A stretch of DNA of 55,755 bases from Myxococcaceae bacterium (lineage in GTDB: Bacteria > Myxococcota > Myxococcia > Myxococcales > Myxococcaceae). The stretch is from positions 1 through 55,755 of the forward strand of contig JAIBBQ010000021.1 of NCBI GenBank assembly GCA_019694595.1, read 5' to 3'. Below are positions 1,665 to 4,940 of this stretch, in pieces; position 1 is the stretch's first letter, and every line of letters starts with the position of its first letter. Made by a program: the position numbers and the translations under genes. The notes beneath the pieces were generated by a model, which was not told the origin of the DNA, did not search any database, and saw only the letters and a program-made list of their open reading frames with translations.

Positions 1665-3524
1665 ATGGCGGACGCCAGCGCGGCGCAGACCACTCCGGCC
1701 CAGGAGCACCGGCCTTCGCTCGCCGCCCGGGCGCGGTGGCTGTGGCGCAAGACGGCCACCGCCGACCTGCGCACCCTGGCGCTCTTCCGCATCGCGCTGG
1801 GCACGCTGCTGCTCACCGACCTCTACGACCGCGCGGGCGGCAAGAACCTGGTCGCCTTCTTCACCAACCAGGGCTTGCTCACCAACCACTGGGCGCTCTT
1901 CCGCCCCATCGCCCCCGGCCAGTGGAGCCTGCTGTTCGGCCTGTCCACCGAGACCGAGGTGCGGCTCGCCTTCACCCTCATCGCCTGCATCTACGTGCTC
2001 TTCCTCGTCGGCTGGCGCACCCGGCTGATGGCGGTGCTGGTGGTGCTCGCCGAGGAGTCGGTGAACTGGCGCTTCCTGCTGCCGCAGCACGGCGGCAACG
2101 TGGTGATGAACATCCTCGTGGTGTGGGCGGTGTTCCTGCCGCTCGGCGAGCGCTGGAGCCTCGACGCGCTGCTGCGCTCGCTGCGCCGCTTCCCCGAGAG
2201 CAGCGTGGAGGCGCTCAACGCCCGCGCCTTCGTGCCCAAGCCGCTGCAGAGCGTCTCGCTGGCGACCCTGGGGCTCTCGCTCAACTTCGCCTTCATCTAC
2301 TTCTTCAACGCCGCCAACAAGAACGGCCGCCTCTGGGGCACCGGGCAGGCGGTGCACTACGTGCTGTGGGTCGACCGCATGTCGACCGCGTTCGCCGCCT
2401 GGCTGCGCATGCACGAGCCGTTCTGGTTCAGCCCCGTCGCCACCTACAGCGCGCTCATCATGGAGTGGTCGCTGCCCTTCCTCATCCTGTCGCCGGTGCG
2501 TCAGTTCAAGACGCGCCCGGTGGTCATCGCCTTCATCATCGCGCTCCACGGCGGCATCTCGCTGATGCTGACGCTGGGGCCGTTCTCGTACTCGATGATG
2601 GCCTTCTCGATGAGCATGCCGCTCGCCGCGCACTGGGCCTTCCTCGAAGGCCGGCTGCGGCGGCCGGACCTCGCCACCGCGGTGCGCGTCGACTTCGCCC
2701 ACCCGCGCGCCCGGCTCCTCGCGCGCGTGCTGGCGCGGCTCGACGGCCTGGGACACCTGCGCTTCGAGCAGGGCGCGGCAGGCAAGCCGTTCTCCGTGCT
2801 GCAGGGCGGGCAGGAGCAGGTGGGCCTCGCCGCCTGGGCGGCCTGCGCGCGGGCGCTGCCGCTCGGCGTGGTGCTCGCGGTGCCGTTCCGGGTGCCCTTC
2901 CTCGCCGACCTGGCTCGCGCGGTGGTGAAGTTCGTCGCCGGCTTCCTGCTCGAGTCGCCCGCGGTGGTGCCCGAGACGGCGCCCGCCGGCGGGCCGCTGT
3001 CGCGGCGCCTGCGCTTCCTCCCGCGCGTGGCGCTGCCGTCGGTCATCGTGGTCGCGATGCTGACCCAGCTCGCGATGGAGTCGATGCCGCCCGGCTACAA
3101 GCTCACCTGGCGGCCGCAGTTCCTCACCTCGGTGGTGGAGTACCTGCAGATTCTCCAGGGCTGGAGCATGTTCGCCCCCAACCCGCTCACCGACGACCAC
3201 CGCCTGGTGGTGGACGCCACGCTCGCCGACGGCACCCACGTCGACCCGCTCACCCATCAGCCGCCCGACTTCGAGCCGTACCTGCACGGGCCGTGGGGCT
3301 TCGACCAGGGGTGGGGCGAGATGCACGGCCGCATGCGCAACTGGCCCGACCACTGGCGCAACTTCCGCGATTACCTGATGCGCATCCCCACGCTGGAAGG
3401 CTGGCCGGAGAACCAACGCATCGTGGCGCTCGAGGTCTGGGACGTCGCCGCCAACAACCCGGTGCCCGGCTCGACCGAGCACACCGACGTGGTCAAGAAG
3501 AAGCTCTTCGACCAGTCCCTGTGA
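1665..3524 (+). CDS. HTTM-domain integral membrane protein
   Basis: 619 aa. The N-terminal half (about 30-330) fits the HTTM ('horizontally transferred transmembrane') domain shared with vitamin-K-dependent gamma-carboxylase: DLRTLALFRIALGTLLLTDL, GLLTNHWALF and an ESVNWRFLLPQHGGN loop, followed by repeated membrane helices. A further helix lies near residue 460. The C-terminal part, after about residue 490, contains QGWSMFAPNPLTDDHR, typical of bacterial HTTM proteins. The full carboxylase catalytic region is not recognisable, so enzymatic activity is uncertain. The ATG at 1665 begins a hydrophilic leader before helix 1. The gene converges with the TetR gene and overlaps it tail-to-tail by 32 bp. 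Confidence 0.8.
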   Translation: MADASAAQTTPAQEHRPSLAARARWLWRKTATADLRTLALFRIALGTLLLTDLYDRAGGKNLVAFFTNQGLLTNHWALFRPIAPGQWSLLFGLSTETEVRLAFTLIACIYVLFLVGWRTRLMAVLVVLAEESVNWRFLLPQHGGNVVMNILVVWAVFLPLGERWSLDALLRSLRRFPESSVEALNARAFVPKPLQSVSLATLGLSLNFAFIYFFNAANKNGRLWGTGQAVHYVLWVDRMSTAFAAWLRMHEPFWFSPVATYSALIMEWSLPFLILSPVRQFKTRPVVIAFIIALHGGISLMLTLGPFSYSMMAFSMSMPLAAHWAFLEGRLRRPDLATAVRVDFAHPRARLLARVLARLDGLGHLRFEQGAAGKPFSVLQGGQEQVGLAAWAACARALPLGVVLAVPFRVPFLADLARAVVKFVAGFLLESPAVVPETAPAGGPLSRRLRFLPRVALPSVIVVAMLTQLAMESMPPGYKLTWRPQFLTSVVEYLQILQGWSMFAPNPLTDDHRLVVDATLADGTHVDPLTHQPPDFEPYLHGPWGFDQGWGEMHGRMRNWPDHWRNFRDYLMRIPTLEGWPENQRIVALEVWDVAANNPVPGSTEHTDVVKKKLFDQSL

Positions 3525-4197
3525 CGCTGATGTGGCCGACGTAGCGCAGCAGCATCGTGGTGAGCTCGTCCACCACCCGCTCGTCGGTGAGCCACTCGGG
3601 CTTCTCGCTGGTGATGCGCAGCTCCATGCCTTCCATCGCGCCCACGATGATGAAGGTGGCGAGCTCGACGTCGAGCGGCCGCAGCTGCGGCGCGTAGAAC
3701 TCGAGCAGCGCCCGCACCAGCACGTCGCCCCGGGAGCGGATGAACTGCTTCTGCGGCACGCCCACCTTCTCCGCCGCCGCCAGGAGCTCGCGGTGCAGCG
3801 CCGGGTCGAGCGCGTGCGCTTCCAGCATCGCCTTCACCAGCATGCGCGCCAGCACCTCGAGCGGCTGGCCGAGCAGCGACGGGTCGGGGGTGAGAATCGC
3901 CTCCAGCTCGGCGACGTGCTGCTCCACCAGCGCGCGGATCAGCGCCTCCTTCGACGGGAAGTACTGGTACAGCGAGCCGACCGAGACCCCCGCGAGCTGG
4001 GCGATGGCGTTGGTCGACAGGCCGTCGTACCCCCGCCTGGTCAGAATGCGAGCAGTTGCTCGCAAAATGGCGTCGACGGTGGCCCGGGCGCGCGCCTGGG
4101 TGGGCGCCTTCCGAGGAGACAGCTGGGGGCCCTTGCGGGTGGGTGGTTTCCTGGCCAATGCGAGTACCGAACGTGAGCGGTTGCTCGCATTATACAC
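3493..4197 (-). CDS. TetR-family transcriptional repressor
   Basis: Up to 234 aa. A TetR-type helix-turn-helix lies at about residues 42-90 (AILRATARILTRRGYDGLS ... AQLAGVSVGSLYQYFPSKEAL), followed by an all-helical ligand domain. The longest start is GTG 4197, but a perfect TATAAT on the same strand (4189-4194) overlaps it. If that box is the -10 element, translation must begin later; TTG at 4158 is the best in-frame candidate. Two palindromic sites built on TGCGAGCA/TGCTCGCA lie here: one over the promoter and one inside this gene, in the codons for ILRATARIL. The regulator is divergent from the COQ4-like gene, which it probably represses along with itself. Confidence 0.88.
   Translation of the reverse strand: MYNASNRSRSVLALARKPPTRKGPQLSPRKAPTQARARATVDAILRATARILTRRGYDGLSTNAIAQLAGVSVGSLYQYFPSKEALIRALVEQHVAELEAILTPDPSLLGQPLEVLARMLVKAMLEAHALDPALHRELLAAAEKVGVPQKQFIRSRGDVLVRALLEFYAPQLRPLDVELATFIIVGAMEGMELRITSEKPEWLTDERVVDELTTMLLRYVGHISVTGTGRRASS
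4047..4064. promoter_or_regulatory. Perfect palindrome inside the TetR gene (probable second operator)
   Basis: TGCGAGCAGTTGCTCGCA is a perfect 8+2+8 inverted repeat within the coding sequence of the TetR repressor (helix 1 codons). It shares the central GT and the full right arm with the promoter-proximal site at 4172-4189. Centre-to-centre distance is 125 bp, close to 12 helical turns, which would suit a looped repressor complex or a roadblock. Identity as an operator is inferred from repeat identity only. Confidence 0.6.
4172..4189. promoter_or_regulatory. Probable TetR operator between divergent genes
   Basis: CGTGAGCGGTTGCTCGCA is an imperfect version of the palindrome at 4047-4064: same centre, identical right arm, three mismatches in the left arm. 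It abuts the TATAAT of the tetR promoter and lies 38 bp upstream of the COQ4-like start at 4227. A further inverted half-site (ATGCGAG at 4158-4164) pairs with CTCGCAT at 4184-4190. The position suits repression of both divergent genes. Confidence 0.65.
4189..4194 (-). promoter_or_regulatory. Consensus -10 box (TATAAT) for tetR
   Basis: A perfect TATAAT reads on the minus strand in a region otherwise near 65-70% GC. No good -35 hexamer is seen at 16-18 bp. The box touches the operator at 4172-4189 and overlaps the longest possible tetR start codon. Confidence 0.45.
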
Positions 4198-4226: not shown

Positions 4227-4940
4227 ATGAATCCATTCAAGCAGGTGTGGCTCCTGGGGAAGCTGGGGTGGGCGGGCATCACGGTGCTGCGCGACCCCAA
4301 CCGGCTCGACCAGGTCTTCGGGGTGGCCGACGGCCTCGCCGAGACGCAGCCGCAGATGATGGCCGACATGGCGAAGGCGCTGGCGGTGGACCCGGTGGGG
4401 GCGAGCGCTCTCGCCGAGCGCCCGCGGGTGGGGCTGCTCGACGTGAAGGTGCTGTCCGCGATGCCCGAAGGCACCTTCGGCCGGGCGGCTGGCGACTACT
4501 TCGTCACCCAGGGGCTCGACCCCGCGGCGCTGCCGCAGCGGCCGGCGAACGACGACACCAGCTACATGCAGGCGCACCTCTACGAGACGCACGACCTCTG
4601 GCACGTGGTGACCGGCTTCGGCACCGACGTCGCCGGCGAGCTCGGGCTGCAGGCCTTCTACGCCGCGCAGGTGCCCGGCAAGCTGCCGTGGGCGCTGCTC
4701 GCCATCGGCTTGCTCAACACGCTCTTCTTCCGCTTCGACGACGGCGTACGCCGGCTCGAGGCCATCACCCGCGGCTGGCGCATGGGGCGCGAGGCCAGGC
4801 AGCTGTTCGGCGTGCGCTGGGCGGAGCTGCTGGCGCTGCCGCTCGGCCAGGTGCGCGCGCAGCTGAAGGTCACCCCGGTCGAGCCGCTCCCCCAGGCCCC
4901 GAGCCTCGCGCTGGTGCCCCGGACCGCCACCGCGGCCTGA
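4227..4940 (+). CDS. COQ4-family protein
   Basis: 237 aa, ATG at 4227. The core carries the COQ4 signature HDLWH (residues 122-126) followed after exactly 11 residues by Glu138, the HDxxHx11E metal-binding motif of the family. A GFGTDVAGELGLQAF stretch and a Pro-rich tail follow. In ubiquinone-producing organisms Coq4 acts on the head group of the quinone precursor (reported as C1 oxidative decarboxylation) and organises the Coq complex. Here no other quinone gene is nearby, and the gene is paired only with a divergent TetR regulator, so the substrate is unknown. It ends 3 bp from the convergent esterase gene. Family assignment is firm; the function is open. Confidence 0.82.
   Translation: MNPFKQVWLLGKLGWAGITVLRDPNRLDQVFGVADGLAETQPQMMADMAKALAVDPVGASALAERPRVGLLDVKVLSAMPEGTFGRAAGDYFVTQGLDPAALPQRPANDDTSYMQAHLYETHDLWHVVTGFGTDVAGELGLQAFYAAQVPGKLPWALLAIGLLNTLFFRFDDGVRRLEAITRGWRMGREARQLFGVRWAELLALPLGQVRAQLKVTPVEPLPQAPSLALVPRTATAA

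Follow-up and report, generated by a model that had tools for sequence, protein, structure and literature searches.

Operators inside coding sequences are known from the LacI and GalR families, where lac O2, inside lacZ, and the gal internal operator serve as auxiliary operators. The LacI family member purR likewise has one operator at its promoter and another, O2, inside the purR coding region. LacI controls its own gene through a roadblock at O3 (PMC3711431), and for the controller protein C.Kpn2I the published abstract describes an experimentally proven elongation roadblock site inside its own coding region (PMC6237814). Here, we analyzed a stretch of 55,755 nucleotides from a Myxococcaceae bacterium (GCA_019694595.1, contig JAIBBQ010000021.1, positions 1 to 55,755), called the window in the following, in which the gene of a TetR-family repressor (tetR) carries a putative operator within codons of its own DNA-binding domain. 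We consider it likely that this internal site is a real operator element through which TetR controls its own gene, selected as DNA in the codons of helix 1 and closing a loop with the operator at the promoter.

The internal site had been described in an initial annotation of the window as a perfect 18-bp palindrome in the helix-1 codons of tetR. Its place was right, but only the two arms are perfect 8-mers; the central GT is not self-complementary, which leaves 16 of 18 positions. The site's codons lie inside helix α1, which spans residues 22 to 42 of the AlphaFold model (pLDDT about 97), and the arm pattern has a single exact match in the whole 7.28-Mb genome. Palindromy itself was rejected as evidence for a site, as with local codon usage perfect arms result from 12% of the synonymous spellings of LRATARI. 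The signal is the very rare codon choice and not the palindromy: in six neighboring genes TTG, CGA, GCA, ACT and GCT account for only.018,.010,.017,.004 and.019 of synonymous usage, respectively.

At the promoter, the initial annotation had placed an imperfect copy at 4172 to 4189, reading CGTGAGCG-GT-TGCTCGCA. This copy does exist beside the TATAAT motif, but it is not one palindrome. It is part of a longer operator at 4191 to 4157 of the minus strand, AATGCGAGC-aacc-GCTCACGTT-cggt-ACTCGCATT, with three 9-bp half-sites in a 13-bp register (Table 1). The first two (half1 and half2) form an inverted pair, and half3 follows in direct orientation. A promoter scan gave no −35 element above threshold, and the tetR promoter is a putative one. 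The distance between the centers of the internal and promoter sites, 125 bp, had been given correctly. Taken alone, the imperfect promoter copy is weak evidence, because shuffled windows yield 0.8 matches at ≤3 mismatches. The upstream operator is the sole exact match to AATGYGAGYNNNNRCTCRCRTT in the genome, and with ≤2 mismatches this sequence is found at three places in 7.28 Mb: upstream (0 mismatches), at the internal site (2 mismatches) and at one unrelated position on one strand only. The upstream and internal sites, 125 bp apart, are the only two palindromic operator matches genome-wide; a genome-wide TetR regulon was rejected, as only these two local sites match.

Table 1. Positions of the tetR gene, its putative operator elements and the divergent gene in the window
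Feature	Position	Strand	Description
TetR-family repressor gene	3493..4158	-	221 aa; most likely start is the TTG at 4158
Internal operator (putative)	4047..4064	.	TGCGAGCA-GT-TGCTCGCA; 8+8 bp arms; codons of helix α1, residues LRATAR
Internal half-site, deeply conserved	4043..4053	-	GCTCGCATTCT; codons Ala36-Arg37-Ile38 and start of Leu39
Upstream operator core (putative)	4170..4191	-	half1 4191-4183 AATGCGAGC, 4-bp gap, half2 4178-4170 GCTCACGTT
Third half-site	4157..4165	-	ACTCGCATT; 13 bp after half2; overlaps TTG start codon
TATAAT, putative −10 of tetR promoter	4194-4189	-	direct reading; overlaps half1
COQ4-like gene, divergent	4227..4940	+	237 aa; PF05019, E 1e-23, 84 bits (cut-off 22.9)

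Homologous loci came from three sources: related genomes within the window's order and phylum, named public genomes, and a selection of orders and families elsewhere; genome searches at class or phylum level outside Myxococcota were sparse. Residue Ala36, located with a profile hidden Markov model, served as the anchor for 245 non-identical loci in total, and statistics were calculated on representatives less than 80% identical across the 70-residue helix-turn-helix region. For operator scoring, we trained a weight matrix on upstream half-sites alone and called an operator at ≥12 bits, with shuffled upstream regions reaching ≤8.7 bits. The homologues are 28–49% identical to the window protein in alignments, with a maximum of 51% in search matches. 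Even so, the same helix-1 codons spell GCT-CRC-RTT-YT, apart from first-letter variation, in Bradyrhizobium, Variovorax, Achromobacter, Caulobacterales, Calothrix and other cyanobacteria, and likewise in a metagenome-assembled genome of Holophagaceae and in many myxobacteria. The sense-strand half-site GCTCRCRTT is found in helix-1 codons of Myxococcota, Proteobacteria, Cyanobacteria and, from the metagenome-assembled genome, Acidobacteriota.

In the 60 operator-bearing representatives the internal 9-mer scored a median of 12.4 bits, compared with 0.3 bits when each gene was recoded synonymously at its own codon usage; the recoding test gave p<0.05 in 87% of these genes (window p 5e-4). In representatives without an operator the median was −0.9 bits. 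Among 83 codon columns, codons 36, 37 and 38 ranked first to third for excess codon conservation, with pairwise codon identities of 0.92, 0.82 and 0.86 observed against 0.38, 0.32 and 0.48 expected. GCT made up 48 of the 50 alanine codons at residue 36, compared with 55 of 866 in the remainder of these genes. All members are homologues, and the raw set holds many close relatives; shared ancestry, horizontal transfer or chance could thus have left matching codons as traces of recent gene copies. This explanation is hardly credible. The representatives share less than 80% identity, down to less than 60%, and residues 36 to 38 change along with the upstream operator. Furthermore, the flanking codons at −4 to −1 and +3 show little or no excess identity, so the cause does not lie in common descent of the DNA.

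Conservation in relatives, which the initial annotation had named as a check on both palindromes, holds for the one sense-strand half-site kept across phyla; the full palindrome is confined to a small myxobacterial group of the LRATA type. All 10 of the members listed for this group spell the arginine as CGA, which results in GAGC-N4-GCTC, although CGA makes up about 1% of arginine codons in the window's genes. Outside the window's group the left arm is not conserved, with GAGC at the mirror position in 5 of 60 representatives. One half-site is thus what the subfamily has in general, and the LRATA-type group, including the window, has extended it to an inverted pair.

Most homologues with the internal half-site have the same three-half-site operator upstream, and in most operator-bearing homologues half3 stands in the same 13-bp register. 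Of the 60 representatives with an operator, 51 also have the internal site, compared with 12 of the 39 without one (Fisher p 9e-8). The internal half-site also resembles the upstream half-sites of its own gene more than those of other genes. For half2 at the 80% level, likeness amounted to 7.0 versus 6.5 letters out of 9, and none of 5000 permutations was as high. With 12 representatives less than 60% identical, covariation was seen for half1 (p 0.0004), half2 (p 0.003) and half3 (p 0.011). The clear cases are lineages that have ATTCGCGTT, TTCAGGTT, CTTACATT or CTCGGRTT at both the upstream and the internal place. In the ATTCGCGTT lineage, residue 36 has become isoleucine (ATT), and the choice of amino acid at this position thus seems to follow from the operator. 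By the synonymous null, the codon-column test and covariation, the site in the coding sequence matches the promoter operator beyond coding constraint. We hence take the internal site for a genuine operator element that a widespread TetR subfamily has in common, usually as a half-site.

Instead of a DNA site, codon conservation of this kind might reflect a feature of the mRNA, such as a hairpin, codon pausing or a translation ramp. A 7-bp RNA hairpin (z −2.8) could indeed form from the window's internal repeat, and the codons are rare. Across the 60 representatives, however, RNA folding was not stronger than for synonymous codons, with a median z of +0.3, and the second arm is missing in most members; the hairpin was rejected as present in the window and unsupported across the family. 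Moreover, the conserved letters match and covary with promoter half-sites that are not translated, and rarity alone would not pick GCT over GCA. We hence regard an mRNA feature as very improbable and retain the DNA site.

The spacing of the two sites speaks for communication between them. Distances from half2 to the internal half-site cluster at 113–115, (118), 122–130, 135–138, 146–147 and 157–159 bp, with singles at 133 and 172 bp, so that one spacing class (114/124/136/147/158) is separated from the next by about 11 bp. At this period, the Rayleigh statistic exceeded that of jittered distances whichever identity threshold between 90% and 60% was used to pick representatives (p≤0.0002), and likewise for the subset that excludes the main cluster (p≤0.013). 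Among 32 sister pairs on branch-disjoint tree paths, 12 differ by ≥4 bp, and 10 of these 12 by 10–13 or 21 bp (p 0.0004). Spacing is divided by the start codon into a leader part and a coding part. As start-codon choice could create an artefact, we limited the compensation test to unambiguous starts. With these, each part was unphased or weakly phased, and the sum was phased; re-pairing leader and coding parts among unique combinations destroyed the phase (0.54 versus 0.16, p 0.0001). Because the sum alone is phased, selection appears to act on the total distance between operator and internal site across the start codon. The two sites are helically phased, as in looping systems, with a period of about 11 bp. 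Phasing over 11–14 turns is a classical sign of looping between two bound complexes.

The main rival to looping is a roadblock, in which TetR at the internal site would halt RNA polymerase on tetR without a loop. The site lies about 120 bp into the transcribed region in constant orientation, and there are precedents in LacI at O3 (PMC3711431) and, as the abstract states, in C.Kpn2I within its own coding region (PMC6237814). Yet a pure roadblock requires no fixed helical phase, and the spacing shifts by whole turns. A roadblock in place of a loop thus seems unlikely to us, although both may operate together. As a further alternative, TetR might bind the internal site merely as a local sink or store, or on behalf of the divergent gene alone, with no effect on tetR. 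An extra site could buffer TetR levels, and the data at hand are sequences. Helical phasing and the length compensation between coding and non-coding parts, however, imply communication with the promoter operator, and we assign such a sink little probability. Looping, as the initial annotation had suggested, fits the phased spacing and is the most likely mechanism.

From sequence, conservation, covariation and phasing we infer the following course of binding, bridging, repression and release. A TetR dimer would bind the inverted pair of half1 and half2 across the −10 region and make a further contact at half3. Another TetR would occupy the half-site within the gene, or the whole internal palindrome in the group to which the window belongs. 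This internal complex would be placed about 12 helical turns downstream on the same face of the DNA, where contact between the two TetR complexes could close the DNA into a small loop of about 125 bp. The loop would shut the tetR promoter, and probably the divergent promoter too, until a ligand frees TetR. The earlier proposal of a second operator element inside the repressor's coding sequence thus gains from nucleotide constraint beyond the protein, from covariation and from helical phasing. On balance, we lean toward a wider view: a TetR subfamily in at least four phyla would carry a half-site in its own DNA-binding-domain codons and use it for a repression loop in helical phase. The evolution of the operator would then dictate residues of helix α1 (alanine to isoleucine with ATTCGCGTT), with protein and operator evolving as one sequence.

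Several observations weigh against this interpretation. The internal half-site is retained in 12 of the 39 representatives scored as operator-less. On supported tree branches the link between presence and absence of the two traits is not significant, with 7 independent pairs being too few for adequate power; in the tree, for which the trait residues had been left out, both traits change 23 times. Four loci, numbered L006, L012, L156 and L158 in our set, lack the internal site but have a palindromic operator upstream. Within a spacing class, the spread is several base pairs wide (122–130). Outside the window's group there is only one good internal half-site, which is unusual for a dimeric TetR. 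As to the four loci, L012, L156 and L158 belong to one genus of another family and have the operator at the start codon; their relative L147 has the internal site in part.

Operator arrangement varies further among the homologues. In L012, L147, L156 and L158, of one genus in the same order, the operator AATGCGAGCAATGGCTCGCATC (AATGTGAGTATTGGCTCGCATC in L156) lies over the start region. In most of these it spans the ATG, and its right arm encodes Met-Ala-Arg-Ile, making it another operator inside a coding sequence. Neither site was found in two groups, L165/L166/L169–L172 and L196/L198/L204; relatives L205–L210 retain both in altered form. L165, L166 and L169–L172 seem to carry a different inverted repeat upstream of tetR, such as CTCCTTGAAAT...ATTTCAAGGAG in L165, possibly a replacement operator. 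In L182, L184 and L189, direct half-sites are repeated about 24 bp apart upstream, and the best-scoring operator is 157–159 bp from the internal site. L053, L054, L091, L097 and L111 have a second upstream pair of inverted half-sites ahead of the main operator, possibly for the divergent gene.

The window protein is an ordinary TetR. It matches the helix-turn-helix domain PF00440 (TetR_N; E 4.2e-17, 62 bits, cut-off 24) and PF17918 (TetR_C_15; E 4e-13), and its AlphaFold monomer model has the all-helical TetR fold (mean pLDDT 88, pTM 0.78). With this model, the Foldseek matches listed were TetR-family structures (best E 6e-7). The protein stayed below the cut-off of every NCBIfam equivalog matched, the best being ScbR_bind_reg with 63 bits against a cut-off of 150. 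An in-frame GTG at 4197 lies within the tetR promoter and operator; our choice of start is based on homologues aligning from residues 1–15 of the window TetR. The same TetR type is found in related genomes of Archangium, Corallococcus and other Myxococcaceae. At its 3′ end, tetR overlaps by about 30 bp (3493–3524) with a convergent HTTM-domain gene (1740–3524; PF05090 just below the cut-off).

The COQ4-like gene presumably is the regulated partner of TetR in the window. A divergent COQ4 gene (48–49% identity) adjoins the same TetR type also in L036 and L049, so this pairing is not confined to the window. The TetR/COQ4 switch of the initial annotation was too narrow a description, as the feature belongs to a widespread TetR subfamily and not to one locus. 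COQ4 is the divergent partner in three lineages only. Elsewhere tetR neighbors are a cytochrome P450, a short-chain dehydrogenase, an alpha/beta hydrolase, membrane-fusion or MFS transporters or a siderophore-interacting protein. A conserved TetR–COQ4 pairing was hence rejected as the point of the system. At positions 8–150 of the window (minus strand), a 602-aa open frame closes with a Gly/Ser-rich stretch and CGCGSAPTFGVLAAAVALVRRRRR, which resembles a MYXO-CTERM-type sorting signal.

If this reading of the internal site holds true, regulatory DNA would constrain a protein sequence over very long times, and the homologues would offer loops of naturally graded length, from 114 to 158 bp, for studying short DNA loops closed by TetR proteins. 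Synonymous recoding or codon optimization of such regulators would then silently alter their control. We found no report of a phased, cross-phylum operator in the DNA-binding-domain codons of a TetR itself in the open-access literature, a search that left most subscription journals outside its coverage and is no proof of novelty.

Intragenic operators are a known kind, so far described as single examples. As proposed for the window TetR, lac O2 and O3 and the gal sites pair an auxiliary operator in coding sequence with the promoter operator by looping or roadblock. Their sites, however, are found within the gene of an enzyme or where lacI ends, unlike those in the repressor's own DNA-binding-domain codons seen here, and we know of no cross-phylum conservation within one gene for lac or gal. 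The purR gene resembles the window's tetR in having a promoter operator and a second operator in its own coding region; to our knowledge, its O2 is neither conserved across phyla nor helically phased. C.Kpn2I is not a TetR and, going by the abstract, is without a helically phased upstream partner (PMC6237814). TetR with tetO1/tetO2, QacR and PA3973 (PMC9736018) are TetR-family regulators with several or overlapping operators. They share with the window protein the TetR fold and inverted half-sites over the promoter and, as proposed for it, autoregulation and a divergent target. PA3973 was rejected as a precedent, its autoregulatory sites preceding the coding sequence (PMC9736018). In all three, the autoregulatory operators lie upstream of the coding sequence, whereas the window TetR appears to carry one of its operator elements within it.
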